63,594 bases of DNA, taken from contig CANRLR010000016.1 in assembly GCA_947631505.1 (NCBI GenBank), positions 1 through 63,594 of the forward strand. The letters are read 5' to 3'. The notes beneath the pieces are model-generated. The model was not told the origin of the DNA. It did not search any database and saw only the letters and a program-made list of their open reading frames with translations. Origin of the DNA: an uncultured Lachnospiraceae bacterium (GTDB taxonomy: Bacteria; Bacillota; Clostridia; Lachnospirales; Lachnospiraceae). Positions 8,999 through 36,122 of this stretch are shown here, one piece after another. The first letter of the stretch is position 1. Every line of letters begins with the position of its first letter. The translations under genes and the position numbers were made by a program.

Positions 8999-9017
8999 GA
9001 TTAAGGAGGATTTGGAT

Positions 9018-9776: not shown

Positions 9777-9819
9777 GAAAACAAAAGATACAGACGACAA
9801 AACAAGGAGGATTAAAAGA

Positions 9820-10209
9820 ATGAAAAAGGTAATTACTTATGGAACTTATGATTTGCTGCATGTAGGGCACATTAATCTGCTTCGCCGTGCAAAAGAACTG
9901 GGAGATTATTTGATTGTTGTCGTGTCTTCCGATGAGTTCAATGCGGGAAAGGGAAAAAAGGCGTATCATTCCTTTGAAGACCGGAAAACAATATTGGAAG
10001 CAATTAAATATGTGGATGAAGTGCTGCCGGAATATACATGGGAGCAGAAAATCGATGATGTAAAGAATAATAATGTAGATGTTTTTGTGATGGGAGATGA
10101 CTGGGAAGGCAAATTCGACTTTTTGAAAGAGTATTGTGAGGTTGTTTATCTTCCAAGAACAGAAGGGATTTCAACAACAAAAATTAAGAATGATCTGAAT
10201 ATGAAATAA
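9820..10209 (+). CDS. tagD: Glycerol-3-phosphate cytidylyltransferase
   Basis: TagD makes CDP-glycerol from CTP and sn-glycerol 3-phosphate, the activated donor for glycerol-phosphate polymers. The protein is 129 residues, the same length as Bacillus TagD. It has the nucleotidyltransferase motif H-V-G-H at 14-17 and the CTP-binding R-T-E-G-I-S-T-T-K beginning at Arg113. The start at 9820 has AGGAGG at 9805-9810; a longer in-frame reading from 9763 would overlap the ATPase gene and adds only charged residues. The glycerophosphotransferase that could use its product begins four bases after its stop. Confidence 0.96.
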   Translation: MKKVITYGTYDLLHVGHINLLRRAKELGDYLIVVVSSDEFNAGKGKKAYHSFEDRKTILEAIKYVDEVLPEYTWEQKIDDVKNNNVDVFVMGDDWEGKFDFLKEYCEVVYLPRTEGISTTKIKNDLNMK

Positions 10210-10213
10210 AATT

Positions 10214-11326: not shown

Positions 11327-11340
11327 AATTATTATATAAT
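11312..11340 (+). promoter_or_regulatory. Promoter for the LCP gene
   Basis: TTGATT (11312-11317) and TATAAT (11335-11340) are 17 bp apart. The -35 lies inside the end of the preceding gene. Confidence 0.6.
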
Positions 11341-11394
11341 TATCTATAAGCGTCTTATAGGGGCTAATACAGATTGAAAATACGGAGGTTTATT

Positions 11395-20791: not shown

Positions 20792-21812
20792 GACAATTAC
20801 GTTCCTGAGCAGCCGGGGAAGAGGGATTAATGCGGATTTATCGCTGCTGCATCGGTTTCTTTCCGAGCATGAAGAATGGAAAGAGTATTCCTATCGCTTT
20901 TTTTCAAAGAGTGAAAGAACAAAAAATCCGGTGGTAAATGCAGGTGCTCTGAAAGCACGGAAAGCATTTAGTGAGAAAGCAACCGATATCATTTGTGTCG
21001 ATAATTCTTTGACCGGAAAGACAGAGGAGGATGAAGGAATCCGAATGCTGTTTTCTGTACCGTATGATTATCAATTCAAGAATTATCTCGCAGTAAAGGA
21101 AAAGAAAAAGAATTGTAATTTTAGGACATTTCAATCTTTTACACATATTATTCCGGGCAGTCCTTTTTCTGAAGAACTGTTGGAAAAGGCCTATGAAACG
21201 GAGGGAAAGAAGCTCTTGACCGGAATTGCCCATCCATTGGCCTGGGATATCTGTCAGGAATTTTCCCGGGAGGAAGCGAGAAAGAAACTGGAATTCTATT
21301 TCCCGGAAATCGGGAAGAAAAAAGTGTTATCCCTCATTATAAGTGGGGATGAAAAGGAACAGGAACGCTTTTTTAAAAATTTTTCGCTCCATGAACTGAT
21401 GGAAAAGCTTGGACCGGAATGGATTGTGCTGACAACGAGTGAAGAAATGAGGAATCGTTCGTTTTCTTTTGTTGGGGAGAAGTTTTCTTTTGGATATATT
21501 GACCACATTGTTTCCCCATCTGTTCTGGCATATGTGGCAGATGTTCTGATTACGAATGAGGGACGTTTTGCAACAGCCTATGCAGGGAAAGGAAGACCAA
21601 TTTATTGTCCGAGAATAAAAAAGAATTATTTTGAGAAATTTATGGATACTTATTATGCGGATCTGGTTCTGAAAAGGGCAGACCAAATGCTGGAGATTGA
21701 TTATAATGCGAAGGAACTGGGCAGAGCACAGAAGAAGTTCTGTCAGCAATTTTGGTATCCAGATGCTAAAGAACCATATCAGATCTTACGGATTTTATTA
21801 GGAATGGAATGA
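20781..21812 (+). CDS. Degenerate TagF-like (GT-B) protein, function unknown
   Basis: This 343-residue protein is not a confident member of any family. Its C-terminal third, L-A-Y-V-A-D-V-L-I-T-N-E-G-R-F-A-T, lines up with the TagF segment that reads M-F-I-S-D-M-L-I-T-D-Y-S-S-V-I-F in the upstream fusion. The canonical T-D-Y-S-S is thus changed to T-N-E-G-R. The His-rich N-terminal motif of TagF is not seen. It overlaps the fusion gene by 11 bases and is followed after 19 bases by tarI, so it is co-expressed with ribitol activation. It might be a ribitol-phosphate transferase, an accessory subunit or a different GT-B enzyme. The gene itself is certain; its role is not. Confidence 0.7.
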   Translation: MNNKTITFLSSRGRGINADLSLLHRFLSEHEEWKEYSYRFFSKSERTKNPVVNAGALKARKAFSEKATDIICVDNSLTGKTEEDEGIRMLFSVPYDYQFKNYLAVKEKKKNCNFRTFQSFTHIIPGSPFSEELLEKAYETEGKKLLTGIAHPLAWDICQEFSREEARKKLEFYFPEIGKKKVLSLIISGDEKEQERFFKNFSLHELMEKLGPEWIVLTTSEEMRNRSFSFVGEKFSFGYIDHIVSPSVLAYVADVLITNEGRFATAYAGKGRPIYCPRIKKNYFEKFMDTYYADLVLKRADQMLEIDYNAKELGRAQKKFCQQFWYPDAKEPYQILRILLGME

Positions 21813-21831
21813 ATACAAAAGGAGGTTTATT

Positions 21832-22539
21832 ATGATTTTTGGAGTTGTTTTAGCCGGAGGAATTGGAAGCCGCATGGGGAATGTGGACAAGCCGAAACAG
21901 TATTTATTAGTGGGGGACAAGCCGATTCTTATTCATACGTTGGAAAGATTTTATATTGAGAGTGAATTTGAGAAGATTATTGTGCTGTGTCCGGCAGAAT
22001 GGGTAAGCCATACAAAAAATCTGATTCGGAAGTATATGGTGGACAGCAGCAGAGTTGTTGTCCTGCAGGGTGGCGAAACGAGAAATGAAACGATTATGAA
22101 TTCGATTCGTTATATTGAAGAAAATTACGGCTTGACGGATGATACGATTGTGGTAACTCATGATTCGGTGCGGCCATTTGTAACCCAGAGAATTATTGAG
22201 GAAAATATTAAATACGCCAAAAAATACGGTGCCTGCGATACGGCAGTGAAGGCTACGGATACGATTGTCTGCAGTGAGGATAATAGAATTATAAGTGAAA
22301 TTCCGGAGAGAAGTAAGATGTATCAGGGACAGACACCACAGTCCTTTAATGCACGGAAATTAAAGAATTTATATGAATCTTTGACAGCAGAGGAAAAAGA
22401 TTTACTGACTGATGCTGCGAAAATCTTTGTGATGAAAGGGGAAAAAGTCCATATCGTAGATGGCGAAGTTTTTAATATTAAGATTACCTATCCGTATGAC
22501 CTGCGTGTGGCAGAGGCCCTTTTGAGAGGTGAAGAGTAA
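21832..22539 (+). CDS. tarI: D-ribitol-5-phosphate cytidylyltransferase
   Basis: TarI couples ribitol 5-phosphate to CTP to give CDP-ribitol, donor for ribitol teichoic acids. This 235-residue protein is of the IspD/TarI family: L-A-G-G-I-G-S-R-M at about 7-15, K-P-K-Q-Y at 21-25, T-H-D-S-V-R-P-F and Q-T-P-Q-S-F. IspD is the alternative, but the next gene is a TarJ-type reductase sharing one base with its stop. That pairing is specific to ribitol phosphate synthesis. AAGGAGG lies just upstream of the ATG. Confidence 0.9.
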   Translation: MIFGVVLAGGIGSRMGNVDKPKQYLLVGDKPILIHTLERFYIESEFEKIIVLCPAEWVSHTKNLIRKYMVDSSRVVVLQGGETRNETIMNSIRYIEENYGLTDDTIVVTHDSVRPFVTQRIIEENIKYAKKYGACDTAVKATDTIVCSEDNRIISEIPERSKMYQGQTPQSFNARKLKNLYESLTAEEKDLLTDAAKIFVMKGEKVHIVDGEVFNIKITYPYDLRVAEALLRGEE

Positions 22540-23564
22540 TGCTGAATACCGTATATCGTCTGGTAGCGCCCGGGCGAATTGAAGTGGAGTTTTCTAATAT
22601 TGACCTTCGGAAGGAAGAGGTGCTGGTAAGACCGACTCATTTGTCGATCTGTCATGCAGACCAAAGATATTATCAAGGGCTTCGTGCAACAGAGATATTA
22701 AAAGAAAAACTTCCAATGGCATTGATTCATGAGGCGATCGGAGAAGTGATCTGGGATAGAAGAGGAGAATACAAGCCCGGAGAACGGGTGGTAATGATTC
22801 CGAATACTCCTTGTGAAGAGGATGCTATTATTGCGGAAAATTATTTGCGCAGTTCCAAATTCCGTGCCAGTGGTTTTGACGGCTTTATGCAGGATGTTGT
22901 GAATATAAAAGCGGACAGGCTTGTTCGGCTTCCCGGCGGAATCAATCTCCACGTGGCAGCATTTACCGAATTAGTATCCGTCAGTGTCCATGCCCTGCGA
23001 AGATACAATGAGATAGCACACAGCAGAAGAAATGCAGTGGGAATATGGGGAGACGGAAATCTGGGATATATTACGGCGACTTTGTTCAAAGCGATGTATC
23101 CGGAAACGAAGCTGTATATATTCGGACTTGACAAAAGTAAGCTTTCGGATTTTACTTTTGCCGATGATACTTTTTCTATTATGAATATCCCGGCAGATTT
23201 GCGGGTGGACCATGCCTTTGAGTGTGTTGGCGGTGAGGGTTCCCCCAAAGCAATTAACCAGATTATTGATTATATTAATCCGGAGGGGACAATTTCCATT
23301 CTTGGAGTATCCGAGAATCCGGTGGCAATAAATACAAGAATGATATTGGAAAAGGGACTGCGTGTGTTCGGAAGCAGCCGCAGCGGAAGAGCAGATTTTG
23401 AAAAAACGGTGGAACTGTATCAGACAAATCCAGAGCTCGTGGAGTATCTGCAAAATATTATTGGTGCTACGATTCTGGTAAAGACGGTTGATGATATGAA
23501 AAAGGCCTTTGAACTGGATAGACAAAATGCGTTCGGCAAAACTATTATGATATGGGAGAAGTAA
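22539..23564 (+). CDS. tarJ: Ribulose-5-phosphate reductase
   Basis: TarJ reduces D-ribulose 5-phosphate to D-ribitol 5-phosphate with NADPH, feeding TarI. The 341-residue protein is of the alcohol-dehydrogenase type: an N-terminal GroES-like domain with C-H-A-D-Q-R-Y-Y and H-E-A-I-G, then a nucleotide-binding fold with G-D-G-N-L-G-Y (about 170-176). Family members form a complex with TarI. It starts within the tarI stop codon (one-base overlap). Strong promoter elements just after it (23590-23619) mark the end of this transcription unit, although no terminator hairpin is obvious. Confidence 0.9.
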   Translation: MLNTVYRLVAPGRIEVEFSNIDLRKEEVLVRPTHLSICHADQRYYQGLRATEILKEKLPMALIHEAIGEVIWDRRGEYKPGERVVMIPNTPCEEDAIIAENYLRSSKFRASGFDGFMQDVVNIKADRLVRLPGGINLHVAAFTELVSVSVHALRRYNEIAHSRRNAVGIWGDGNLGYITATLFKAMYPETKLYIFGLDKSKLSDFTFADDTFSIMNIPADLRVDHAFECVGGEGSPKAINQIIDYINPEGTISILGVSENPVAINTRMILEKGLRVFGSSRSGRADFEKTVELYQTNPELVEYLQNIIGATILVKTVDDMKKAFELDRQNAFGKTIMIWEK

Positions 23565-23589
23565 GAGGTCTCTTGATAGACAGTAAGCA

Positions 23590-23619
23590 TTGACATCAGA
23601 AGAATGTGTGCGGTATAAT
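23590..23619 (+). promoter_or_regulatory. Strong promoter of the amino-sugar decoration module
   Basis: A perfect TTGACA (23590-23595) and perfect TATAAT (23614-23619) are 18 bp apart. This is among the strongest consensus promoters in the window and opens the run of genes 23652-34839. Confidence 0.8.
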
Positions 23620-23651
23620 AGTAAAATATTGGAAGATAAAGGAGAATGATG

Positions 23652-24779
23652 ATGATTTGCTTTAATGTACCACCTTATGTAGGAACAGAAATGAATTATA
23701 TTGAGGAAGCTATAAAAAATCATAAAATATGCGGTGATGGAGCATTTACCAAGAAATGCAATCAGTGGCTGGAGGAAAAGACAGGAGTGCCGTCTGCCCT
23801 TTTAACAACTTCATGTACCCATGCGACGGAAATGGCGGCGATTCTTTTGGATATTAAGCCGGGGGATGAGGTCATTATGCCATCCTACACATTTGTTTCT
23901 ACAGCGGATGCTTTTGTTCTGCGTGGTGCGAAAGCGGTATTTGTTGACATTAATCCGAAAACGATGAATATAGATGAAAATTTAATTGAGGATGCCATTA
24001 CGGACAAGACCAGAGCAATTGTTCCGGTCCACTATGCGGGAGTATCGTGTGAGATGGACAAGATTCTTGAACTTGCTGAAAAATATAATCTGGCAGTTGT
24101 AGAGGATGCTGCACAGGGAATTATGTGCACCTACAAAGGAAAACCGCTCGGCTCCATGGGAGATTATGGCTGTTATAGTTTTCATGAAACGAAGAACTAT
24201 AGCATGGGCGAGGGCGGTGCTTTGCTTATCCGCGACGAAAAAAACACGGAACTTGCGGAGATCGTCCGTGAAAAGGGAACGAACCGCAGCAAATTTTTTC
24301 GGGGACAGATTGATAAATATACATGGGTAGAGGCAGGAAGCTCTTATCTGCCAAGTGATATGAATGCTGCTTATCTGTGGGCACAGCTGGAAAAAGCAGA
24401 TGAAATCAACCAGAATCGTCTGGCGAACTGGAATCGTTATTATGAAGGCTTAAAGGGCTTGGAGGAGCAGGGCAGGATTGAACTGCCGTATATTCCAGAG
24501 TATTGTGAGCATAATGCACATATGTTCTATATAAAAACAAAAGATCTGAAGGAGAGAACAGCACTCATTTCTTATTTGAAGGAACATGACATATTAGCAG
24601 TATTCCACTATATTCCGCTTCATAATGCGCCGGCAGGCAAAAAATATGGAAGATTCCATGGAGAGGACAAGTATACGACAAAGGAAAGTGAACGTCTTGT
24701 CAGACTTCCGATGTATTATAATTTGAAAGCGGATGAGTGTGATTATATTATTCAGACAATTAGGGAATTTTACAAATAA
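23652..24779 (+). CDS. wecE: dTDP-4-amino-4,6-dideoxygalactose transaminase (WecE/RffA type)
   Basis: This 375-residue PLP enzyme converts dTDP-4-keto-6-deoxyglucose to dTDP-4-amino-4,6-dideoxygalactose (Fuc4N) in its Enterobacteria homologue. The resemblance to E. coli WecE runs over the whole length as I recall that protein: F-N-x-P-P-x-V-G-T-E, C-G-D-G-x-F-T, P-S-Y-T-F-V-S-T-A, S-F-H-E-T-K-N-Y with the PLP lysine at about 181, R-E-K-G-T-N-R-S and F-H-Y-I-P-L-H. The start at 23652 puts AAAGGAG seven bases away and matches the M-I-x-F-N start of WecE; ATGs at 23646 and 23649 are too close. The glucose-thymidylyl and 4,6-dehydratase genes (rmlA, rmlB) are not in this window. Confidence 0.93.
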   Translation: MICFNVPPYVGTEMNYIEEAIKNHKICGDGAFTKKCNQWLEEKTGVPSALLTTSCTHATEMAAILLDIKPGDEVIMPSYTFVSTADAFVLRGAKAVFVDINPKTMNIDENLIEDAITDKTRAIVPVHYAGVSCEMDKILELAEKYNLAVVEDAAQGIMCTYKGKPLGSMGDYGCYSFHETKNYSMGEGGALLIRDEKNTELAEIVREKGTNRSKFFRGQIDKYTWVEAGSSYLPSDMNAAYLWAQLEKADEINQNRLANWNRYYEGLKGLEEQGRIELPYIPEYCEHNAHMFYIKTKDLKERTALISYLKEHDILAVFHYIPLHNAPAGKKYGRFHGEDKYTTKESERLVRLPMYYNLKADECDYIIQTIREFYK

Positions 24780-24816
24780 GTGTGATCAAGGAAAATGCGA
24801 ATAAGGAGAAGTCAAT

Positions 24817-25233
24817 ATGGCAAAAAATAAGATAGAAAATTTGGAAGTCGGTCAGTATTACGAGCAGGAGTTTGTTGTAACAGAGGAAATGGGAGAAGAA
24901 TTTGCCAAAATATCCAAGGACTTTAATCCGATTCATTTGGATGAAAAGGCGGCGGCTCAAACTCGTTTTAAGAAGAAAATCGTTCATGGAATGCTGATGG
25001 CAAGTTACATTTCTGGAATAATCGGAAACGAGTTTCCTGGCGAGGGCTCCGTATATATGGGGCAGAATCTCTCCTTTCGGGGACCGGTATATTACAATAA
25101 CAAAGTAATTGTCCGGGTCGAAGTGACAGAGATTAATCTAGAGAAGAAACGTTTGAAACTGAGCACAACATGCAGAAATGAGAATGAAGAACTGCTTATA
25201 CTCGGAGACGCATTGGTCATGCTGGATAACTAG
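24817..25233 (+). CDS. MaoC-like (R)-specific enoyl-CoA hydratase
   Basis: This 138-residue hot-dog protein carries the hydratase-2 motif D-F-N-P-I-H-x-D, in which the Asp and His are catalytic, followed by the family's F-x-x-x-I-V-H-G-M-L segment. Relatives such as PhaJ hydrate crotonyl-CoA to (R)-3-hydroxybutyryl-CoA. It lies between the WecE transaminase and a GNAT acyltransferase, 37 and 9 bases from them. That is a strange place for a fatty-acid enzyme. The simplest reading is that it supplies a 3-hydroxyacyl-CoA for N-acylation of the amino sugar. Catalytic residues appear intact; substrate and role are inference. Confidence 0.88.
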   Translation: MAKNKIENLEVGQYYEQEFVVTEEMGEEFAKISKDFNPIHLDEKAAAQTRFKKKIVHGMLMASYISGIIGNEFPGEGSVYMGQNLSFRGPVYYNNKVIVRVEVTEINLEKKRLKLSTTCRNENEELLILGDALVMLDN

Positions 25234-25242
25234 GAGGTAATT

Positions 25243-26166
25243 ATGGCAAGGATTTCTTTTGAAGATAATAATGACAGATATGTGAAATGCTATGTGGAAA
25301 GAGATTATTCTTTCTTGACGGATACAATTATGGGAGACAAAGAAAATCTTACGTACTATGTGGAAGAGGATGGTGTTCTGTATGGATACAAAATTGCCAG
25401 AAATATACCAGTTTCTGATTTGTATGAAGATGACTTTTATTCCGTTCGTTTCTATTTTGTCAATGTGGATACTCTGCACAGTGAAAAACAGGAGAAAAAC
25501 ATGATTCGGATCATGGAACAGCTGAATCAGGAAATTGAAAAGAATAACGGGTACTATAATTTGCGGATACCGACCCATATTGTAGATTTGATAAGAGCTT
25601 ATAATCAGGTGATAGCAAGCTCCATTTTTTGTGGCGGTACGGTGGAAGAATATATTTTTAACAAAAAAGTACCGGACAATAATAAGAACGGGTTAAAGAT
25701 CTTTTTGGCGGATAATGATTATATTAATCTCCATAAGGACAGATTACTTGAGATGACCTACCAGTCCTTTGAAACCTATCAGGGACAATATCATATTTCC
25801 AACATTACCGATTATCAGGCCGGTAAAATTTATGAGAACTGGATTGAGACGAGCCTTGGCGGCAACAGCCATGATCTGATCGTGATGGCAGAGCATGATG
25901 GAGAACCGATTGGTTTTGTTACATTGGGAGAGGCTGCTCATTCGGTAGAGGGCATATTATCTGCTGTTTCGCAGCAGCATCGGCAGTATGGTGCATATAA
26001 AGCAATGATAGCATATGCAATTAATTATGCGTATCGTGAGAATAAGAGCTTTGTGACCAGTACGCAGTTTGACAATTTTATTGTGCAGGGGGCATGGGCT
26101 GCTCTGGGATTGAAACCATTTTATTCCATTTATAATTTTCATGTAGATAGGCGGATAAAAAAATGA
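25243..26166 (+). CDS. GNAT-family acyltransferase, probably acting on the amino sugar
   Basis: This 307-residue protein has a GNAT fold in its C-terminal half: an acceptor region, V-M-A-E-H-D-G-E-P-I-G-F-V-T-L, then the acyl-CoA pyrophosphate-binding motif Q-H-R-Q-Y-G-A-Y at about 245-252 and L-G-L-K-P near the end. The N-terminal half of about 145 residues is not a known domain. WecD, the partner of WecE in enterobacterial common antigen, is also a GNAT protein that acetylates dTDP-Fuc4N, so the same step is likely here. The overlap with the next gene (ATGA) and the MaoC hydratase just before it suggest the acyl group may not be acetyl. Confidence 0.8.
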   Translation: MARISFEDNNDRYVKCYVERDYSFLTDTIMGDKENLTYYVEEDGVLYGYKIARNIPVSDLYEDDFYSVRFYFVNVDTLHSEKQEKNMIRIMEQLNQEIEKNNGYYNLRIPTHIVDLIRAYNQVIASSIFCGGTVEEYIFNKKVPDNNKNGLKIFLADNDYINLHKDRLLEMTYQSFETYQGQYHISNITDYQAGKIYENWIETSLGGNSHDLIVMAEHDGEPIGFVTLGEAAHSVEGILSAVSQQHRQYGAYKAMIAYAINYAYRENKSFVTSTQFDNFIVQGAWAALGLKPFYSIYNFHVDRRIKK

Positions 26167-27086
26167 AGATATCAGTAGTAATTCCCTGTTATGGGTCTGA
26201 GAGAACAATAGAGAATGTCGTAAATGAAGTTATGACGACAATGAAGCAACGGGATGTTGACTATGAAATCATTCTGGTAAATGATTCATCTCCAGACAAT
26301 GTCTGGGAGGTTATCAGCAGACTGGCAGAGGAACATGATAAAATTACCGGAATTAATTTTGCCAAGAATTTTGGACAGCATTCTGCCCTGATGGCAGGAT
26401 ACCGGGCATGTACCGGGGAATTTGTATTGTCTTTGGATGATGATGGGCAGACACCGGCAGATGAATTGTTTTCCTTAGTGGACAAACTGGAGGAAGGCTA
26501 TGATGTTGTTTATGCAACTTATGATAATAAGAAGCATAGTGGATTCCGCAATTTAGGCAGTAAAGTAAATGATTTCATGTGTGAGAAGCTGTTGGGAAAA
26601 CCGAAAGGACTAATGGTCTCCAGTTATTTTATTGCCAGAAAGTTTATTATTGATGAAGTCTGCAGATACAAAAATCCATATTGCTATGTTCTGGGACTGG
26701 TATTGCGGACAACGAATAATATTGGCGGTGTACCGGTAAATCACAGAGCAAGGGAAATCGGACATTCCGGTTATACGATAAAAAAACTGCTCGGTTTGTG
26801 GATGAATGGTTTTACTGCATTTTCGATTAAACCACTGCGGCTTGCCACGATGCTCGGTGTTGTTTTTGCTATGCTTGGATTTTTCTATACGATTTATATT
26901 GTAATTAATCATTTTTGCAATCCATTGACACCAATTGGATGGAGTTCTACGATTGCGGCAATTATGGTCGTTGGCGGATTGATTCTTTGTGTGCTGGGAA
27001 TGATTGGAGAGTATCTGGGAAGAGTATATATCTCTATTAATGACGCTCCTCAGTATGTGATAAAAGAGTTGAAAAAAAAGGAGTAA
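26163..27086 (+). CDS. ArnC-like polyprenyl-phosphate glycosyltransferase
   Basis: This 307-residue enzyme should place a sugar on undecaprenyl phosphate at the cytoplasmic membrane face. The GT-A domain (about 1-225) has V-V-I-P-C-Y-G-S-E, N-D-S-S-P-D-N, N-F-G-Q-H-S-A-L-M-A-G and the metal motif D-D-D-G-Q. The N-F-G-Q-H motif is typical of ArnC, the aminoarabinose transferase. Two C-terminal membrane segments (about 233-255 and 265-290) follow. It overlaps the GNAT gene by four bases, which ties it to the N-acylated amino sugar as donor. GtrB/DPM1-type function is the broader family label. Confidence 0.9.
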   Translation: MKISVVIPCYGSERTIENVVNEVMTTMKQRDVDYEIILVNDSSPDNVWEVISRLAEEHDKITGINFAKNFGQHSALMAGYRACTGEFVLSLDDDGQTPADELFSLVDKLEEGYDVVYATYDNKKHSGFRNLGSKVNDFMCEKLLGKPKGLMVSSYFIARKFIIDEVCRYKNPYCYVLGLVLRTTNNIGGVPVNHRAREIGHSGYTIKKLLGLWMNGFTAFSIKPLRLATMLGVVFAMLGFFYTIYIVINHFCNPLTPIGWSSTIAAIMVVGGLILCVLGMIGEYLGRVYISINDAPQYVIKELKKKE

Positions 27087-27095
27087 GAGGAAATT

Positions 27096-28622
27096 TTGTT
27101 AGAGAATGTGAGAAATCGTAGAGATGATATAAGAAAAGCTGTGTATGCTCTGATTGCTATTGCTCTGCCATTCATTTTTCTGCTTATTCTGTATTCACTA
27201 ACTGGAAATGGTTTTGACCTGACAAAACTGTTTCCTACATATAGCGATGAAATCGGATGGTATTCTCAGATTCGCTCCTATGTAGAATGTGGAGAGATTT
27301 ACGGAAACTATGGTTATAATGGCAGCAGTGCACCAATGATGGGAACCGGAGCATGGGGATTTATTATTTTAATCCCTTATATATTGATTGGAAAGATAAT
27401 AGGAATGACGCCATTTACTATGATAGCTGCTAATATTATTTTCATTTCTATTGCTATTCTGATTTTTGTTTCTTTAGTGAAGCCTACGAAAAAACAGTAT
27501 TTTGCATTATATGTATCGGAGGTTTCGCTTTATTTATTGATGATGTATATGAGCATATCTATGTCGGAGAGCCTGCGATATGCAATGAGTATATTTATCA
27601 TAGCGTTCCTTATTAAACTTTATCGTGGGGAAGGTAATTCGTTATACCGTTATGTCACGGTACCTTTGGTATTACTGCTTTGTTCCATGATTTTTATGAT
27701 AAATGTTATTTGGTTTCCGGTATATTTCTTTTATATAATCCGATTCCGGTATCCATTCATTAATATTGCTGTTAACTTGTTTGCAACGGCAATAATTGCC
27801 GCTTTGGTAAATTGGGTGATCGGTCTTACCAGCTGTCAATATTTACAGCCTTCTACGATGCAACAGATTTTGAGTGCTTTCAAAGAGGGACTGGGAAACG
27901 GAATCGTGACGTTTACGAATCATTTTTTTACCAATATTCATACGGTTGATTTGTTCCAGATAGCATCTGATGCAAAAGAGAACTATGGTGTTACTTCTTG
28001 GTTTTTTGTTTTGTATCTTGTTGTGACGGCAGGATTTATGATATATGCATATAAAAGTTTCCGAAAAAATAATTGGCAATGGATATTAGGTGCCTATATC
28101 ATGTTAGCATTCCTTTTTGCTTTCTGCGGACTGTATACAGGAGTTCGGTGGACGTTGGCAAGAGGAATTTGTGTTGGTTTTGTGGCAGCTATGTTTTTGT
28201 TGAGTATATGCGAAAAAAATAAACTATATTATGTGGTATCCGCATTGATTTTATTGAGTTTTCCCTCCTTTTACCGGTATTCATCCCAGTCCTTTACGGA
28301 GCGGAAACCGTCATATGAAGTACGAAGTCAGATAGAGAATGAACGGCAGGAATTGAAAGAGGTAATGAAACTGGAAAAAGGCGGAGGCCGTTGGGATAAC
28401 ACGATTGCGTATTATGGACAGATGGATAATTCCATCCTTGCTTTTCCGGAAGGATACGGCTTAAATTTTATGTTGAATAAAAATATGGTCTGTAAGGCAA
28501 AATGGGCTTGTGTCGGGAAAGAGTATGATCGGGAAGCAACGGAGAGGCTGGTTTCTTTGATAAAGGACAATGGATACAAAATGTTTTATGAAAGTGAAAG
28601 CTTTTATATATATCAGAGATAA
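27096..28622 (+). CDS. Large polytopic membrane protein, possible GT-C glycosyltransferase
   Basis: This 508-residue protein has about ten or eleven hydrophobic segments and a soluble C-terminal end of about 110 residues. A loop after the first segment contains Y-S-D-E-I-G-W-Y, an acidic pair placed as in GT-C enzymes that use polyprenyl-phosphate sugars. No named family was recognised. A TTG start is used with a short GAGG-type site upstream; a GTG lies four codons further on. It begins nine bases after the ArnC-like gene and shares one base with the next. It is a good candidate for the enzyme that transfers the flipped sugar to a wall polymer outside the cell. Confidence 0.7.
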   Translation: MLENVRNRRDDIRKAVYALIAIALPFIFLLILYSLTGNGFDLTKLFPTYSDEIGWYSQIRSYVECGEIYGNYGYNGSSAPMMGTGAWGFIILIPYILIGKIIGMTPFTMIAANIIFISIAILIFVSLVKPTKKQYFALYVSEVSLYLLMMYMSISMSESLRYAMSIFIIAFLIKLYRGEGNSLYRYVTVPLVLLLCSMIFMINVIWFPVYFFYIIRFRYPFINIAVNLFATAIIAALVNWVIGLTSCQYLQPSTMQQILSAFKEGLGNGIVTFTNHFFTNIHTVDLFQIASDAKENYGVTSWFFVLYLVVTAGFMIYAYKSFRKNNWQWILGAYIMLAFLFAFCGLYTGVRWTLARGICVGFVAAMFLLSICEKNKLYYVVSALILLSFPSFYRYSSQSFTERKPSYEVRSQIENERQELKEVMKLEKGGGRWDNTIAYYGQMDNSILAFPEGYGLNFMLNKNMVCKAKWACVGKEYDREATERLVSLIKDNGYKMFYESESFYIYQR

Positions 28623-29839
28623 TGAAAGGATTGGCAAGTGTGAAAATGAATGAGTCCGGTCAAAAAATTGAAATAGGAAAAATACTTTTTGGTTTTCTGT
28701 GGATTGGCTATTTGTTTGTAACATTACTATTATTTTACAATCAGGCTGCTTCTACACAGGGGAAGCTGGGGACCTTCCACACCGATATGGTGGATTATCT
28801 GCAGTTCCTTTTTGGTGAGCAGAGACTTCCTTATACGTATGCTTACCCGATTGTTTTTAATTTAATTGTTTTTTTCAGTAAATTTACGACGCACGCGGCA
28901 GCGGCAGCATTTGCAGTTACTCTGATCAATAGTTTTACTCCGGTTATTATTAAATACTATTTGGATAAATTTATTGGAAAAGACAAGGAAATATGGAATA
29001 GTATTTTAACTTTTGTTCTTTTATTTGTTACCCCCATTTTTTTGGGAATTATAAATCATAATATGTATTTAGGTGTCTGCAGTCCCAATACTTGGCATAA
29101 TGCTCCGATTTTGGCAACAAAAGGAATTTCCATTATTGCCTTCTTTTCTTTCTTTTCTTTATTGGAAACATATAAGACAAAAATAGATGGAAAAGAATTT
29201 GCCCTTTTTTCAATCAGTATGATTGTGTCGGTTCTGGCAAAGCCGACTTTTGCCTTTGTGTTTTTTCCGACAGTGGGATTATATTTATTGTATGAGCTCG
29301 TGGCAAGCAGATTTAAAATCATAAAACGAAGCCTGTTGTTTTTTATTGCGTTTATTCCATCTTTTGCTGCGTTGATTTATCAATACTGTATTTTGTTTGA
29401 CGAAAGTGAAAGCAGTAAAATAATTTTTGGCTTTGGAACGGTGTGGCATCTGCTTGTGAATAATTTGCCATTTGCCTTGCTCTGTGGTTTAGCGTTTCCT
29501 CTCTTTGTTGCTATATTTAATTATAGATATTTTATAACGAGCAAGATTTACCGCATAACGGCATTCTTTGTCATAGTCAGCATATGTGAGGGCTATTTTT
29601 TACAGGAGGACGGCAGAAGAATGCTGCATGGAAATTTTATATGGGGATATTGTCATGGATTGTTTTTTGCATTTCTTATTTCCGTGATATTGTTTGCCAA
29701 GACGTTCAAACAGAGGAATATGTTCTATCGCATTGGCGGGATTGCGTTGATCATTGCTCATCTGATCAGTGGAGTTATTTGGTTTATTTATCAGTTTTTA
29801 GGGTGTCCTTATAACAATGTTGTGCTCTCATTGTTTTAA
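28622..29839 (+). CDS. Polytopic membrane protein, possible second GT-C enzyme
   Basis: This protein of up to 405 residues has about ten hydrophobic segments. The first external loop contains H-T-D-M-V-D-Y-L, again an early acidic loop of GT-C type, followed by L-P-Y-T-Y-A-Y-P. No family was recognised. The ATG at 28622 overlaps the previous stop; a GTG at 28640 has AAAGGA nine bases upstream and may be the true start, giving 399 residues. It is embedded in the same operon as the ArnC-like transferase. It could form a pair with the preceding membrane protein or act on a different acceptor. Confidence 0.65.
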   Translation: MKGLASVKMNESGQKIEIGKILFGFLWIGYLFVTLLLFYNQAASTQGKLGTFHTDMVDYLQFLFGEQRLPYTYAYPIVFNLIVFFSKFTTHAAAAAFAVTLINSFTPVIIKYYLDKFIGKDKEIWNSILTFVLLFVTPIFLGIINHNMYLGVCSPNTWHNAPILATKGISIIAFFSFFSLLETYKTKIDGKEFALFSISMIVSVLAKPTFAFVFFPTVGLYLLYELVASRFKIIKRSLLFFIAFIPSFAALIYQYCILFDESESSKIIFGFGTVWHLLVNNLPFALLCGLAFPLFVAIFNYRYFITSKIYRITAFFVIVSICEGYFLQEDGRRMLHGNFIWGYCHGLFFAFLISVILFAKTFKQRNMFYRIGGIALIIAHLISGVIWFIYQFLGCPYNNVVLSLF

Positions 29840-29860
29840 TCGTATTGGGAGGGAATGGAT

Positions 29861-32680
29861 ATGTCTTATTTAGAGAAGATAAAAAAAGGAAATCACAAAA
29901 CGGTAATCCATTATACTGTTTTGTTTGCTGTAATCAGTTTTATTTCTTTTAGTTTTTTTCTGATTTTTAATAAAAGTCTCATTTATGAGGCAGATGGTGT
30001 ACTTCAGCATTATGTGAACTTAGTGAATCTGCGACATATGATAAGTGATCTGCTTCACGGGAATGGTTTTTCTTTTTGGAGCGATGAGGTTGCCATGGGC
30101 GGTGATACAATTGGCAATTTAAGTATGCTGACGCTGTGTGATCCCTTTGCTTATATTGCGGCAATTTTTCCGGTCCGGTATATGGATATCGGATATGGGG
30201 CTGCCATTGTATTGCGGTTATATTGTGCCGGACTGGCCATGCTTGGTTTTATTCGATATCGTGGTTTTAGCAGTGAAAAATGTGTTCTGGCAGGAATCAG
30301 TTATGCTTTTTGCTATTGGGCGATGGGTGTAATTCGCCATGGTACTTTTTTATTACCGTTGCTATTGTTCCCGCTTGTAATATGGGGAATTGAAAAGGTG
30401 CTGCAAAAAGAAAGCCCCTGGCTGCTTATTTTTAGTGTAGGTTTTTCCTTTTTGTCATCGGTGTATTTTTCTTACATGACAGGTATTATAGCATTTCTTT
30501 ATGTGATGGTACGTTACTTTTCTTCCGGGGAGAGTAAAACCGTTAAAAGTTTTTTGCAAATGATTTTCCGGTTTGTCGGATATATATTGATTTCCTGCTG
30601 TTTGGCGGCACCTGTGCTTATTGTAGCAGTTTTTGCTCTGTTAAACTGCAGTACGAGCAGCGGTATTGACATTGATATTTTTCTGACGTTGAAACAGCTC
30701 TTATTGTATATACCGAGCCTGACAACGAAAACAGAAGTAATCAGCTATTTCTCTTTTACGGGTGTCAATGCTTTCTTTACCTTATTAATTCCTTTTGCGG
30801 TTTTCGGCATAAGGAACAGAGAAAAGAAAGTTCCCTGCATTATGTTTCTTTTTTCCCTGTTAATGGTTGCTTTTCCATTGTGGGGAAGTTTTATGAACGC
30901 ATTCAGTTATGCGTCAGGACGCTGGTGCTACGCACTTGCTTTCTTCTTTGTCTGGATGGGAACGGAACAGCTGGAACAATTTCAGACAATGAATGAAAGG
31001 GAGCGGAAAATCTGTGCTTCATGGATAGGAATTTTACTGGCTGCTACCTTGATATCCAGTATGATATTTGGAGTGCTGTCGAGTGAAGATATGGCATTTT
31101 CCTTTTTTGAAATTGGATTTATGGCATTCTTTTTCCTAAGAAATAAAATGGAGGTCCAGAGGATTCTTCTTGTTCTGGTTTTAAATATTGGAATCGGATA
31201 TTGTATTCAGTATTCTCCTTTTGGTGATGATAATATGAATGCTATTTCTGAGTTTGCCGGAATAGGGGAAACCTATGCAAGATATGAGGATTCTGTTTTG
31301 CGGGGGACCAGTGCGATCAAGGATAAGGATTTTTACCGGGTGGATTACGCGGAGCATATAGCCACATCAGATGATAAATATCTGTTATCCTGTATGCCGG
31401 CAAACGAAAGTGTATACTGGGATGCCAGAACGGTCTGCGGTTATTATTCTACCATTGAGAATAACGTATTTGAGTATAATAAGCAGGTTCTGAATAGTCA
31501 GAATTATTGCAGAAGGACCAGCGTGTTCAATAATGACAGCCGCAGCCGGCTGAATTTCCTGCAGGGGGTAAAATACTATTTACAGGAGAAAGAAAACTTA
31601 AATGAACTGATTGACACGAAGAATTATTCAGGATATGGTTATACTTCTTATAAAACAGAAAAAGGCGTAAAGATTAAGCAATCAAAATACAATGCCGGTC
31701 TAGGATATGTGATGCCGAAGGTCATTTCATCGGAAGAGTATTCACAGCAGAGTCCGCTCAAAAGTGAACAAACGATGATGCAGGCAGCCGTTCTGGATGA
31801 AGAGGATATGAAAGCCAGTAAGGTGGAGAATTTGTCGGTCAGCCAGTCCGAATTGCAATATGAAGATAGTGAGGTCGCTTATGAACGGAGTAATAAGACT
31901 TCCGTGGACTGGAAAGGGGAAAATGCCTTTGACGTTTCAGCGGAAAAAAATATGATTTTTCTTTCTGTTCCGAAACTGGAAAAAGTAGAATTGTATGTAG
32001 AATTTAAAAATTTGCGGCGTGTTCCGTTTACGACAGAAGAACAGGCGGAAAAAGCAGAGGAAAATAATATGGATGAAATGTCCATTTATGAGAAACGTCT
32101 GGGTAAACTGGATTCTTTGCTGCGTGGTGAGGCAACGGATGAATTTAGCTTTTATGCCTGTGTGGGAGATGTGAAGAAGCTTGTTACGTATATTAGCAAT
32201 ATGCCGCAGGGAATTGCTCCCCAGTCTGATTTTATGACTCATATCGGATATTTTAATAAGGTGTCTGATGTTATAAATCTGACATTTTTAGGTCAGGGAC
32301 ACTATACCTATGACAGCTTAAAGGTATATGCGGTGAAACAAAATAATTTTGATGCACAGGCTGCCCAGTTAAGCAATAACCGTTTTACGGCAACACAAGT
32401 ACAGGATGATTGTATTCAGGGAAAGGTAAATAGTTCTTATGATGGCTGGCTCTATTTGAATCTTGTATATAACCCGGGCTGGAAAGCTTATGTAGATGGT
32501 GTGGAAACAGATCTGGTCTGCACCAATACATGTTTTTCCGGGCTGCCGGTGAGCAGCGGGGAACATGAAATTGTGCTGGAATATTATCCCTATGGTCTGA
32601 ATTATGGTCTGGCTGCCTTTGTTCTTGGAGTATCTGCATGCATGATTATTCTGTTCGTTAGAAAAAGAAGGACGAAATAG
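29861..32680 (+). CDS. YfhO-family membrane glycosyltransferase
   Basis: YfhO proteins are GT-C-type enzymes that add sugars to lipoteichoic or wall teichoic acid from a polyprenyl-phosphate donor. This 939-residue protein has about 12-13 membrane segments in its N-terminal half, a large extracytoplasmic domain (about 450-900) and a last membrane segment just before a K-R-R-R-T-K end. The first loop has the acidic pair in E-A-D-G-V-L-Q-H-Y, and the outer domain ends with the characteristic G-W-x-A-Y-V-D-G-V-E and Y-Y-P-Y-G. GGGAGGG lies seven bases before ATG 29861; ATG 29855 is too close. In known systems YfhO works with a CsbB/GtlA-type transferase, here probably the one at 33425. Confidence 0.88.
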   Translation: MSYLEKIKKGNHKTVIHYTVLFAVISFISFSFFLIFNKSLIYEADGVLQHYVNLVNLRHMISDLLHGNGFSFWSDEVAMGGDTIGNLSMLTLCDPFAYIAAIFPVRYMDIGYGAAIVLRLYCAGLAMLGFIRYRGFSSEKCVLAGISYAFCYWAMGVIRHGTFLLPLLLFPLVIWGIEKVLQKESPWLLIFSVGFSFLSSVYFSYMTGIIAFLYVMVRYFSSGESKTVKSFLQMIFRFVGYILISCCLAAPVLIVAVFALLNCSTSSGIDIDIFLTLKQLLLYIPSLTTKTEVISYFSFTGVNAFFTLLIPFAVFGIRNREKKVPCIMFLFSLLMVAFPLWGSFMNAFSYASGRWCYALAFFFVWMGTEQLEQFQTMNERERKICASWIGILLAATLISSMIFGVLSSEDMAFSFFEIGFMAFFFLRNKMEVQRILLVLVLNIGIGYCIQYSPFGDDNMNAISEFAGIGETYARYEDSVLRGTSAIKDKDFYRVDYAEHIATSDDKYLLSCMPANESVYWDARTVCGYYSTIENNVFEYNKQVLNSQNYCRRTSVFNNDSRSRLNFLQGVKYYLQEKENLNELIDTKNYSGYGYTSYKTEKGVKIKQSKYNAGLGYVMPKVISSEEYSQQSPLKSEQTMMQAAVLDEEDMKASKVENLSVSQSELQYEDSEVAYERSNKTSVDWKGENAFDVSAEKNMIFLSVPKLEKVELYVEFKNLRRVPFTTEEQAEKAEENNMDEMSIYEKRLGKLDSLLRGEATDEFSFYACVGDVKKLVTYISNMPQGIAPQSDFMTHIGYFNKVSDVINLTFLGQGHYTYDSLKVYAVKQNNFDAQAAQLSNNRFTATQVQDDCIQGKVNSSYDGWLYLNLVYNPGWKAYVDGVETDLVCTNTCFSGLPVSSGEHEIVLEYYPYGLNYGLAAFVLGVSACMIILFVRKRRTK

Positions 32681-32699
32681 CCTTGAAAGGAAGGAAAAA

Positions 32700-33065
32700 A
32701 TGGATAAGACAAAAGTAAAAACACTGTTTGGACTGCACTTGTTGTTAATGGTGTATTCGATGAGCAGTATATGCAGTAAAATGGCAGCAGGAAGTGAATT
32801 TTTAAGTTTCCGGTTCTGTCTGTTCTATGCAATTATTATTGCCCTGCTGGGACTTTATGCCATTGGATGGCAGCAGGTGATCAAACGTCTGCCTCTGACG
32901 GTTGCCTTTGCGAACAAATCGGTAACGGTTGTCTGGGGAATCATATGGGGATTTGTATTTTTTCAGGAAAAGATAACCATTGGCAAGATTGTAGGAGCAC
33001 TTTTTGTAATTGCAGGTGTCATTTTGTATGTCCGTGACGGTGCAGGAGAGGAGGAAACACCATGA
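32700..33065 (+). CDS. Small multidrug-resistance-fold transporter subunit (ArnE-like)
   Basis: This 121-residue protein has four membrane segments and the EamA/SMR features K-M-A-A, P-L-T-V-A-F-A-N-K-S and F-F-Q-E-K. It overlaps the next gene, which encodes a second four-segment protein of similar size, by four bases. The pair resembles ArnE/ArnF, which flip aminoarabinosyl-phosphoundecaprenol. In this operon it probably forms the heterodimeric flippase for the polyprenyl-phosphate sugar. Drug efflux is the alternative but fits the context poorly. Confidence 0.82.
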   Translation: MDKTKVKTLFGLHLLLMVYSMSSICSKMAAGSEFLSFRFCLFYAIIIALLGLYAIGWQQVIKRLPLTVAFANKSVTVVWGIIWGFVFFQEKITIGKIVGALFVIAGVILYVRDGAGEEETP

Positions 33066-33403
33066 TATTGTATGCTTGTGTTCTGTTGGCTGGTGTTTTC
33101 GTCAGTGCTGTTTCGCAAGTTATGTTAAAAAAGGCAGCACAGAAAACCTATGATTCCAAAATAAAAGAGTATTTGAATCCGCTCGTTATTTTTGCCTATA
33201 TTCTTTTTGTGGGAACTACATTTATTTCTATCGTTGCCTATAAGGGGATTCCTCTTTCGATGGGGCCGATTTTAGAGTCGACCAGTTATTTGTATGTGAC
33301 AATTTTTGGTGTGACAATATTTAAAGAAAAGCTAAATAAGAACCGTATTATTGCATTGATTTTTATTTTGTGCGGAATCGCAATCTATTCCCTTTGGGGA
33401 TAA
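33062..33403 (+). CDS. Small multidrug-resistance-fold transporter subunit (ArnF-like)
   Basis: This 113-residue protein has four membrane segments, with S-Q-V-M-L-K-K-A-A in the first and I-F-K-E-K-L-N-K-N-R before the last, as in SMR/ArnF proteins. It is translationally coupled to the ArnE-like gene (ATGA overlap). A GtrB/CsbB-like transferase follows after 21 bases. Together the two proteins equal one eight-segment flippase. Confidence 0.82.
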   Translation: MILYACVLLAGVFVSAVSQVMLKKAAQKTYDSKIKEYLNPLVIFAYILFVGTTFISIVAYKGIPLSMGPILESTSYLYVTIFGVTIFKEKLNKNRIIALIFILCGIAIYSLWG

Positions 33404-33424
33404 CGGAAAAAAGAGAGGTAGAAT

Positions 33425-34378
33425 ATGAAATTGTATATGGTAGTTCCATGCTACAATGAGGAAGAGGTCTTAGGAGAGACAACAAAACAGCTCGAGAAGA
33501 AATATACGAATCTGATTCGTCAGGGGAAGATATCAGATGACAGCCGTATTCTGTATGTCAACGATGGCTCAAAGGATAGTACATGGCAGCTGATTGAAAA
33601 ACTTCACAGAGAAAATACACATGTCAGCGGCTTGAACCTATCCCGCAACAGAGGCCATCAGAACGCTGTTCTGGCAGGATTAATGTACGCCAAAGACTAT
33701 TGTGATGCTGCCATTTCCATGGATGCGGATTTACAGGATGATCTGAATGCGATTGATGAAATGGTGGATAAATTTGCAGAGGGAAAGGATGTCGTTTATG
33801 GTGTCAGGAGCAGCCGGAAGAAAGACAGTTTTTTTAAGAAATTTACCGCAGAAGCCTTTTATAAGCTAATGCTCTGGATGGGAGTGGATATTGTATTTAA
33901 TCATGCGGATTACCGGCTGATGAGCAAAAGGGTGCTGGAACAGCTGGAAAACTATAAAGAGGTAAATCTGTTTTTGCGGGGTATCATTCCGTTGATCGGT
34001 TATCCATCGACGAACGTGTATTATGAGCGGAATGAGCGGTTTGCCGGAGAAAGTAAATATCCGTTGAAAAAGATGCTGTCTTTTGCTTTTGATGGTATTA
34101 CGTCATTTAGTATCAAACCGATCCGGTTTATTCTGAGCCTCGGTCTGATTATTTTTTTAGTTAGTGTCGGAATCCTTATTTATTCTTTGATCCGCCATTT
34201 TATCGGTGCTACGGTGATGGGGTGGAGCAGTCTGATGGTTTCGATCTGGGCGCTGGGAGGATTACAGCTTTTGGCAATTGGCATCATTGGTGAGTACATC
34301 GGAAAGATGTATTTGGAAACAAAAGAGCGTCCTAGATTTGCGATTCAGGATATTTTAGATGATACAGAGGATAAATAG
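33425..34378 (+). CDS. GtrB/CsbB-like polyprenyl-phosphate glycosyltransferase
   Basis: This 317-residue enzyme has a GT-A domain (V-V-P-C-Y-N-E-E-E, N-D-G-S-K-D-S-T, N-R-G-H-Q-N-A-V-L-A-G, metal motif D-A-D-L-Q-D at about 101-106) and two C-terminal membrane segments (about 238-260 and 272-295). The R-F-A-G-E-S-K-Y-P motif before them is typical of GtrB/CsbB/YkoT enzymes that charge undecaprenyl phosphate with glucose or GlcNAc. Such enzymes pair with YfhO, which lies three genes upstream. It is the second enzyme of this type in the operon, so two different lipid-linked sugars may be made. Confidence 0.9.
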   Translation: MKLYMVVPCYNEEEVLGETTKQLEKKYTNLIRQGKISDDSRILYVNDGSKDSTWQLIEKLHRENTHVSGLNLSRNRGHQNAVLAGLMYAKDYCDAAISMDADLQDDLNAIDEMVDKFAEGKDVVYGVRSSRKKDSFFKKFTAEAFYKLMLWMGVDIVFNHADYRLMSKRVLEQLENYKEVNLFLRGIIPLIGYPSTNVYYERNERFAGESKYPLKKMLSFAFDGITSFSIKPIRFILSLGLIIFLVSVGILIYSLIRHFIGATVMGWSSLMVSIWALGGLQLLAIGIIGEYIGKMYLETKERPRFAIQDILDDTEDK

Positions 34379-34419
34379 CGGCAAAGGGAAACAGAGAAAG
34401 AGACAGGAGGACGGTTGTT

Positions 34420-34839
34420 ATGACTATTGCCCCTTACGAACATAAGGTTCAATATTACGAAACAGATAAAATGGGAATCGTTCACCATTCTAATTACATA
34501 CGTTGGTTCGAAGAGGCCAGAGTAGACTTTTTGGAGCAGGTGAATATGCCTTATGAGGATTTGGAAGCAAGAGGGATTATTTGTCCGGTTGTTTCTGTGC
34601 AATGTAAGTATGTAGGGATGACACACTTTGGAGACATTGTCTGTATCTCTCTGAAGGTAGAGGAGTTCAATGGAATCCGTCTTATTCTATCTTATGAAGT
34701 TAAGGATAAAAGAACAGGGGAGCTTCGGTGTACGGGAAGGAGTTCTCATTGTTATTTAGATGAAAAGGGGAAATTTGTCAGTCTGAAACAGGTGTGCCCG
34801 GAATATTATGAGGTGTATAAACAGGTAGAAGAACAGTAG
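34420..34839 (+). CDS. Acyl-CoA thioesterase (YbgC/FadM-type hot-dog protein)
   Basis: This 139-residue protein has the 4-hydroxybenzoyl-CoA thioesterase signature: Y-E-T-D-K-M-G-I-V-H-H-S-N-Y-I-R-W-F-E-E-A-R, with the catalytic-type Asp in place. It hydrolyses an acyl-CoA; the chain length cannot be read. It lies 41 bases after the GtrB-like gene and before a bidirectional terminator, so it is the last gene of the module opened by wecE. It is the second hot-dog enzyme in that module. It may recycle or edit the acyl-CoA pool used for sugar acylation, or be a housekeeping passenger. Confidence 0.88.
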   Translation: MTIAPYEHKVQYYETDKMGIVHHSNYIRWFEEARVDFLEQVNMPYEDLEARGIICPVVSVQCKYVGMTHFGDIVCISLKVEEFNGIRLILSYEVKDKRTGELRCTGRSSHCYLDEKGKFVSLKQVCPEYYEVYKQVEEQ

Positions 34840-34841
34840 AT

Positions 34842-34868
34842 AGCGCGGTTTTTAACCGCGCTCTTTTT
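34842..34868. terminator. Bidirectional terminator between thioesterase and GT2-GtrA genes
   Basis: A 9-bp stem (34842-34850 with 34854-34862) has a TTT loop and is followed by a T-rich tail on the plus strand. It overlaps the last codons of the minus-strand gene ending at 34852. Confidence 0.85.
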
Positions 34869-35961: not shown

Positions 35962-35994
35962 GTTCTCTTCTCCCCTACATCATTTATATAGCTT

Positions 35995-36023: not shown

Positions 36024-36032
36024 GTGTTTTTC

Positions 36033-36061: not shown

Positions 36062-36122
36062 AGCATCATAGTATGTGCTGGAGTGCCATAAACAGGAAAG
36101 GCACTTCGGATTGGAGGATGTT

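Follow-up and report, generated by a model that had tools for sequence, protein, structure and literature searches.

We analysed a stretch of 63,594 nucleotides from an uncultured Lachnospiraceae bacterium (contig CANRLR010000016.1, hereafter the window), whose source genome comprises 2.74 Mb and is 99.74% complete, and focused on an eleven-gene operon predicted to decorate a cell-surface polymer with an N-acylated amino sugar. Between positions 23590 and 34862 on the + strand, a promoter, eleven tightly packed genes with an intergenic spacing of -4 to +41 bp and a terminator form an apparent complete transcription unit. The promoter (23590..23619, +) is a sigma-70 site, TTGACA-18-TATAAT, identical to the consensus at 12 of 12 positions, and is the sole exact match (spacer 16-18) on both strands of the whole window, where 0.04 per strand would be expected from simulated sequence. 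The intrinsic terminator (34842..34862, +) consists of a 9-pair stem and a T-run and has the longest stem among the terminator-like matches. Weaker promoter-like matches in 20500-38000 numbered 50 against 48.8 by chance, and weaker terminator-like matches 12 against 12.0, which is why the perfect promoter carries weight, while the general scans were dropped as evidence. The preliminary description of this locus had placed its genes behind one strong promoter on the same strand, and both points held: family scans recovered all eleven named genes in this range with the proposed identities, and the eleven genes look like one transcription unit.

The first gene (23646..24779, +) encodes a WecE-type dTDP-4-amino-4,6-dideoxyhexose transaminase, which exceeds both curated cut-offs (NF008687, 655.7 bits against 375; TIGR02379, 651 bits against 434.85). 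In BLASTP comparisons it shares 66% identity with E. coli WecE and 31% with ArnB, and together with a score of 203 bits against the ArnB family cut-off of 631 this led us to reject an assignment as ArnB. The NF008687 cut-off was exceeded by one gene of the own genome, the WecE of the operon, and was passed in one of 14 control genomes. RmlB is encoded in the genome as well (495.9 bits, cut-off 365.1), and an RmlA-like protein with 64% identity to RffH is encoded beside it on another contig, so that the sugar precursor is available. The product is most likely D-Fuc4N, as judged from family membership, and the 4-amino-4,6-dideoxyhexose named in the preliminary description is thus backed by a true WecE.

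The following two genes would provide the acyl group. The MaoC-fold protein (24817..25233, +; PF01575, 80.2 bits) has as its closest solved structure an (R)-specific enoyl-CoA hydratase (PDB 1iq6, E 1.5e-28), and its motif DFNPIHLD aligns with DFNPLHLD of that structure, keeping DFNPxHLD with the D and H residues that we take to be catalytic; domain match and alignment together mark it as a PhaJ-like (R)-specific enoyl-CoA hydratase. Downstream lies a GNAT acyltransferase of 307 amino acids (aa) (25243..26166, +), a proposed amino-sugar N-acyltransferase, in which PF00583 covers residues 198-289 with 29.7 bits, while the N-terminal half gave sub-threshold matches at most against Pfam at E 1. 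The subfamily is rare. Among 397 genomes of the family there were 9 matches at E 1e-3, five of them (own genome included) full length with E < 1e-98, and in 398 genomes of the phylum no match besides the own genome was found at E 1e-15. The genome collection yielded thirteen confirmed loci, and MaoC adjoins the GNAT in ten of them (L001, L002, L005-L012) as well as in L031, one of three further GNAT loci (L031-L033). Considering that in the own genome a 3HCDH_N gene lies at a distance of about 1 kb from an acyl-CoA dehydrogenase gene, a supply of crotonyl-CoA is plausible, and our best guess for the acyl group, from the families involved, is (R)-3-hydroxybutyryl. In one genome (G080, L032) the 307-aa GNAT family is duplicated in tandem at 8994-10861; the piece also contains a PgfS-like gene, and no WecE, ArnC-like or SMR gene was found on it.

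The fourth gene (26163..27086, +; PF00535, 99.6 bits) encodes an ArnC-like glycosyltransferase with a C-terminal pair of transmembrane segments. Its nearest PDB relatives are ArnC (E 2.5e-46), and its profile match to E. coli ArnC extends over the full length; with 31% identity the two are clearly homologous. Judged by sequence, the full-length match and the transmembrane pair identify it as a polyprenyl-phosphate GT-A enzyme. Further downstream, two small overlapping genes encode membrane proteins placed in EamA by Pfam, which we describe as ArnE/F-like SMR subunits 1 (32700..33065, +; 31.4 bits) and 2 (33062..33403, +; 29.5 bits; cut-off 28.2 for both). In profile comparison with ArnE they reached 94.8% and 93.7%, respectively, over partial length, and subunit 1 reached 21% with ArnF. 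The preliminary description had proposed exactly such a combination of ArnC-like loader and ArnE/F-like pair, and the full-length ArnC match and the local ArnE profile matches support it. Subunit 1 is predicted N-in and subunit 2 N-out, and their lysine/arginine (K/R) charge bias was positive in 11 of 11 and negative in 11 of 11 cases (window pair included), the pattern that two antiparallel subunits of a heterodimer should show. A phmmer search with one SMR protein led nowhere. In the available text of a survey of SMR proteins, the lipid-type members occur mainly in Proteobacteria and as single genes in the genome set used there, with functional pairs known (PMC9574504). An SMR homologue with 42% identity lies at 603-941 of a 4.4-kb unverified faecal phage scaffold (L147, MT839273.1), which could be bacterial contamination.

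Between the ArnC-like gene and the SMR pair, three genes encode proteins that may act in transfer. The last of them is a YfhO-family GT-C transferase (29855..32680, +; PF09586, 318.9 bits, cut-off 28.5), the single YfhO-family match in the own genome. The two others, a 508-aa protein with 8 hydrophobic segments and an invariant D51-E52 (27096..28622, +) and its 405-aa partner with 10 hydrophobic segments and an invariant D55 (28622..29839, +), are candidates only, called GT-C-like for their topology and the invariant acidic residues near the N-terminus. Profile comparison of their families with ArnT stayed under 1%, searches against Pfam at E 1 gave sub-threshold matches at most, and one relative of the 508-aa protein showed a weak GtrII match (E 9e-4, below cut-off). 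The 508-aa family occurred in 12 of 250 genomes of the family and the 405-aa family in 16, including all 12; in six of the 12 (own genome G000, G223, G198, G135, G022, G116) the 508-aa gene adjoins an ArnC-like gene, either directly or via the 405-aa gene. An ArnC-like gene was present in four of the eight 508-/405-aa loci that were fetched (L071-L078), and in one of these (L071 from G223) WecE lies upstream of the order 508-405-ArnC-like-SMR-SMR. In this locus (147-12887), genes for WecE, an SDR protein, transketolase halves, an AMP-binding protein, LuxE and LuxC precede the block, perhaps specifying a branched or otherwise modified sugar variant.

The operon ends with a second loader and a thioesterase. 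The former (33425..34378, +) is a PgfS/CsbB-like polyprenyl-phosphate glycosyltransferase of the GT2 type, whose best NCBIfam name is PgfS; the latter (34420..34839, +) belongs to the YbgC/FadM family of acyl-CoA thioesterases (TIGR00051, 85.6 bits, cut-off 68.7), and no relative of it was matched by tblastn at E 1e-4 in 26 related pieces. Just beyond the terminator, at 34852-35961 on the - strand, lies a fusion of GT2 and GtrA domains, which represents GtrA among the flippase candidates and is a possible flippase for the second loader.

Outside this genome, the order WecE-MaoC-GNAT-ArnC-like-SMR-SMR recurred in six of the 13 GNAT loci (L001, L002, L006, L009, L010, L011), and L008 contains the core genes with others interspersed. 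L003 and L004 show the order WecE-SMR-SMR-ArnC-GNAT, L012 has WecE-MaoC-GNAT-ArnC and no SMR pair, and an ArnC-like gene was not found in L005, L007 and L013. Some of these loci are near relatives (L003/L004; L009-L011), hence the 13 are not all independent. The gene order is therefore not peculiar to this strain, an outcome that the preliminary description would have counted against its proposal, and its recurrence elsewhere makes the operon arrangement more than chance. The eleven-gene set itself, taken there as one unit, was not found elsewhere; what recurs is a smaller core with swappable modules.

Furthermore, profile searches in 348 genomes of the family detected SMR genes in 90, ArnC-like genes in 109 and both in 70 (odds ratio 19.7 in a Fisher test without correction for relatedness); at the cut-off of 1e-70 used for the ArnC-like search, the own genome gave the ArnC-like gene only and the PgfS-like gene remained unmatched. 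In 33 of the 70 genomes the two genes lie within 4 kb and in 20 within 1 kb, compared to 6 kb in the own genome. From the 26 genomes with the close pair on the same strand we fetched 20 pieces, chosen regardless of WecE; seven opposite-strand and five same-strand genomes were excluded, and G223 was covered as L071. All 20 pieces contain both SMR subunits, and 15 contain a WecE of at least 60% identity by tblastn, separated from the nearest core gene by 19-6480 bases (<0.1 kb in 7 pieces, <1.2 kb in 10); the SMR subunits of L123, L130 and L133 and the WecE of L129 were seen by tblastn only. Proteins of 450 aa or more that have 7 or more hydrophobic segments are encoded in 13 of the 20 pieces and YfhO-like proteins in five.

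The acyl module differs among these pieces. The 307-aa GNAT was found in none of the 20, while 16 contain an ATP-grasp gene and two (L131, L134) a PseH-like GNAT; among the 15 pieces with WecE, 11 have ATP-grasp, two the PseH-like GNAT and two neither. Five ATP-grasp assignments were confirmed by family scans, the others are based on BLASTP to these, with weak matches in cases such as L128 and L130, and in L133 a MaoC-like gene (36%) lies beside the ATP-grasp gene. The ATP-grasp pieces (L121, L122, L124-L128, L130, L132, L133, L135-L140) predict amino-acyl sugars. From this gene content we read one system with an exchangeable amide-forming module, being MaoC plus GNAT, a PseH-like GNAT or an ATP-grasp protein of the amino-acid-ligase type. 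Trees of 37 ArnC-like and 28 WecE proteins, made by a quick method, need at least 6 and at least 8 changes of the acyl module, respectively, which fits module swapping and is given little weight, with open inner branches (13 of the 34 and 13 of the 25), long branches meeting and no shuffle control. Plasmids were searched with the DNA of the operon, with the GNAT and, at E 1e-60, with the ArnC-like protein, all of which led nowhere.

The genomic context gives a hint to the acceptor. Upstream of the operon, Pfam identified an ABC exporter pair (ABC2 membrane protein and ATPase), a cytidylyltransferase, a glycerophosphotransferase and an LCP ligase (8186..12936, +), followed by a GT2-TarL-like polymerase fusion, an open reading frame (ORF) without Pfam match, a TarI-type ribitol-5-phosphate cytidylyltransferase (NF001183, 375.4 bits, cut-off 166) and a zinc-type alcohol dehydrogenase, taken as TarJ from its position and family (17954..23564, +). 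The Pfam-less ORF, of 343 aa, lies between the TarL-like gene and TarI at 20781-21812. L002 has an ABC pair and genes for cytidylyltransferase, glycerophosphotransferase and LCP immediately after the core. The teichoic-acid-type genes flanking the operon and trailing the L002 core favour wall teichoic acid over protein or another polymer, and the acceptor would most likely be the ribitol/glycerol-phosphate wall polymer that the surrounding genes are predicted to make and to export by the ABC transporter. The surface-polymer surroundings assumed in the preliminary description are borne out by the same exporter, glycerophosphotransferase, LCP and TarI/TarJ-type genes. Besides these, the window holds a PseC-like DegT aminotransferase (12998-14215), a phosphoglycosyltransferase (14194-14895) and a PseB-like 4,6-dehydratase whose N-terminus is of the sugar-transferase type (43847-45838). 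We take these as a second amino-sugar route, which suggests a different lipid-linked initiating sugar. Two adjacent LicD-family genes (37180-38942) suggest decoration with phosphocholine or a similar group.

Together, these data lead us to consider it probable that this operon specifies extracytoplasmic glycosylation by a multi-component transmembrane system, which would use an N-acylated 4-amino-4,6-dideoxyhexose and work in five steps. RmlA and RmlB would provide dTDP-4-keto-6-deoxyglucose, which WecE, according to its family membership, would aminate to dTDP-Fuc4N. MaoC would then hydrate crotonyl-CoA to (R)-3-hydroxybutyryl-CoA, the presumed chain length, with which the GNAT may acylate N-4. 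Thereafter the ArnC-like enzyme, as expected from its family, would move the acylated sugar onto undecaprenyl phosphate, the SMR pair with its opposite predicted orientations would flip the lipid-linked sugar, and the 508-/405-aa pair and/or YfhO may transfer it to the surface polymer. The PgfS-like enzyme and YfhO may constitute another donor line serving the same acceptor. We read this system as modular, with a constant 4-amino-4,6-dideoxyhexose, a swappable N-acyl group, an ArnC-like loader, a presumed flippase of two oppositely oriented SMR subunits and a GT-C-like transferase.

Several observations weigh against this reading. WecE alone is not diagnostic, since Acetoanaerobium has a WecE of 71% identity on a piece with neither ArnC-like nor SMR genes. 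As far as gene content tells, the GNATs of this family do not depend on WecE as a neighbour either: no WecE of at least 60% identity was found on the pieces of L005, L013, L031, L032 and L033, and neither ArnC-like nor SMR genes on those of L031 and L032. In L003, MaoC lies on the opposite strand at 9 kb from the GNAT, the pieces of L004 and L013 gave no MaoC match, and the GNAT shows weak local similarity to WecD, with profile comparison failing at 7.7%. Moreover, several proteins stay below the curated cut-offs of their namesakes, namely the ArnC-like protein (180 bits against 529 for the ArnC equivalog), the SMR proteins (23.7-25.8 bits against 92-99 for the ArnE/ArnF equivalogs, and local profile matches to ArnE) and the second GT2 (239.9 bits against 500 for PgfS). 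The 508- and 405-aa proteins have no Pfam match at E 0.001, comparison of their families with PDB profiles gave two implausible matches for the former and none for the latter, and among the eight fetched loci of these families L071 alone combines WecE with the SMR pair. Finally, the co-occurrence statistic ignores relatedness, for 37 of the 70 genomes the SMR and ArnC-like genes were not found within 4 kb of each other, five of the 20 pieces gave no WecE at or above 60% identity, these pieces represent close same-strand pairs, and the sole same-genus genome sampled (G108) has an ArnC-like gene and no GNAT or SMR match.

The strongest rival, to which we give a little less than an even chance, is that two systems share one transcript, one composed of WecE, MaoC, GNAT, the ArnC-like enzyme and the SMR pair, the other of PgfS and YfhO, which would independently add another sugar, perhaps with the GT2-GtrA fusion as flippase. 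The operon has two GT2 loaders and three candidate transferases, the fusion lies just past the terminator, a PgfS-like gene was not found on the core-bearing pieces L001, L002 and L009-L011, and in L031 and L032 the GNAT is accompanied by a PgfS-like gene (58 and 61%) and by no ArnC-like gene, so pairings differ. L134, however, unites YfhO (429 bits), a PgfS-like gene (54%) and WecE with the ArnC-like gene and both SMR genes, and in L009, where PgfS is absent, the gene right after the SMR pair is of the YfhO family, so that YfhO may serve the amino sugar. The single pathway of the preliminary description stands for its core, while the PgfS/CsbB-like enzyme and YfhO may belong to a second system.

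A rather doubtful alternative concerns the acyl group, which would not be a 3-hydroxyacyl if MaoC and the thioesterase served other acyl-CoA metabolism and the GNAT were an acetyltransferase. GNAT specificity cannot be told from sequence, no relative of the thioesterase was found in the 26 related pieces, and in L008 an extra GNAT (PF13302) adjoins MaoC and the 307-aa GNAT. Against this alternative, MaoC and GNAT are adjacent in ten of 13 loci, also in L005 with just distant DegT relatives, and no MaoC was found on the pieces of L131 and L134, where the GNAT is PseH-like and thus by name of the acetyltransferase type.

That the same donor line ends on protein is unlikely. Here the PgfS-like GT2 and YfhO would perform Pgf-type glycosylation of surface proteins with the amino sugar as cap, consistent with PgfS as the best NCBIfam name of the second GT2 and with weak PgfM1 and PgfM2 matches of YfhO, yet these matches too lie below cut-off (62.4 bits against 1400 and 56.9 against 1500), and genes for ABC export, glycerophosphotransferase and LCP are present in the window and directly follow the L002 core. 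A cytoplasmic route, in which ordinary GT2s build the dTDP sugar into a repeat unit for Wzx or ABC export and the SMR pair has another role, could draw on the Wzx, Wzy, phosphoglycosyltransferase and several GT2 genes in the window and is nevertheless very improbable given the full-length match of the ArnC-like enzyme to polyprenyl-phosphate glycosyltransferases and an ArnC-like/SMR co-occurrence far above independence (relatedness uncorrected).

Compared to known systems, the favoured reading of a wall glycosylation operon has its logic in common with Arn (ArnBCADTEF, E. coli K-12), namely a predicted 4-amino sugar, an ArnC-like loader and paired ArnE/F-like proteins. Unlike in Arn, the transaminase is WecE and not ArnB, the sugar is a hexose derived from a dTDP sugar, lipid A is not involved and the N-acyl group is proposed to be retained, whereas the N-formyl group of the Arn pathway is not kept. 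No significant BLASTP match to ArnA or ArnD was obtained among the operon proteins, to which this search was confined, and no ArnT counterpart was found among them. We therefore reject the operon as Arn itself, the ArnB, ArnA/ArnD and ArnT comparisons and those with the ArnC and ArnE/ArnF equivalogs all having failed, and the statement of the preliminary description that its steps mirror Arn is kept for the logic and given up for the enzymes. The anthrose operon of Bacillus combines hydratase, aminotransferase, acyltransferase and glycosyltransferase to make a 3-hydroxyacylamido-dideoxysugar, and is set apart by its crotonase-type hydratase and its place in an exosporium oligosaccharide. With the Fuc4NAc branch of the enterobacterial common antigen (rffG, rffH, rffC/wecD, wecE), the operon would share WecE-made dTDP-Fuc4N and cytosolic N-acylation; there, by annotation, WecD acetylates and WecF uses the sugar for a repeat unit, in contrast to the different GNAT with MaoC and the lipid-monophosphate route proposed here.

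According to the accessible part of one survey, Fuc4NAc is reported only in Gammaproteobacteria among the genomes covered (PMC7725333). On the type B flagellin of Clostridioides difficile, a peptidylamido-Fuc3N glycan carries amino acids in amide linkage, and a gene of the D-alanine-ligase type is predicted there. This glycan is similar to the ATP-grasp variants and by analogy a chemical precedent for them, although it is a 3-amino sugar on flagellin and ArnC-like or SMR genes are not mentioned in the available sections (PMC5207245). The multi-component transmembrane systems of the CsbB/GtcA/YfhO type share with the operon a polyprenyl-phosphate GT-A enzyme, YfhO/GT-C and the wall context, and their small membrane flippase has a putative counterpart in it; as far as the excerpts of a 2021 review go, the flippases of Gram-positive systems are GtrA or Wzx (some unknown) and the sugars Gal, Glc and GlcNAc (two unknown) (PMC8035078), and in their place the operon has an SMR pair and a predicted pathway devoted to an acylamino-dideoxyhexose. 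In the text available for the undecaprenyl-phosphate pentofuranose three-component systems, an ArnE/EmrE-similar small flippase acts with a GT-C protein on pentofuranose donors, with no amino sugar and with Gram-positive candidates too (PMC11127046), and an ArnE-related flippase per se is therefore less novel. No description of the gene set was found in searches of an open-licence library, outside of which subscription papers fall.

If the proposed system is real, a Gram-positive counterpart of the Arn logic would be common in Lachnospiraceae, where 70 of 348 genomes contain both marker genes, and Gram-positive wall glycosylation would extend beyond GtrA/Wzx flippases and Gal, Glc and GlcNAc to SMR flippases and N-acylated amino sugars. 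In addition, Fuc4N-type sugars would be predicted outside Gammaproteobacteria. We tentatively go one step further, at a confidence below even, and suggest a glycan barcoding in Lachnospiraceae, in which the 4-amino-4,6-dideoxyhexose on undecaprenyl phosphate and its flipping by an SMR heterodimer would stay constant while the amide is exchanged by cassette between 3-hydroxyacyl, acetyl and amino-acyl or peptidyl groups, giving related strains chemically different surfaces. Overall, the operon would offer a genetic handle on surface variation in these bacteria, with possible relevance to phages, immunity and the sensing of host glycans.

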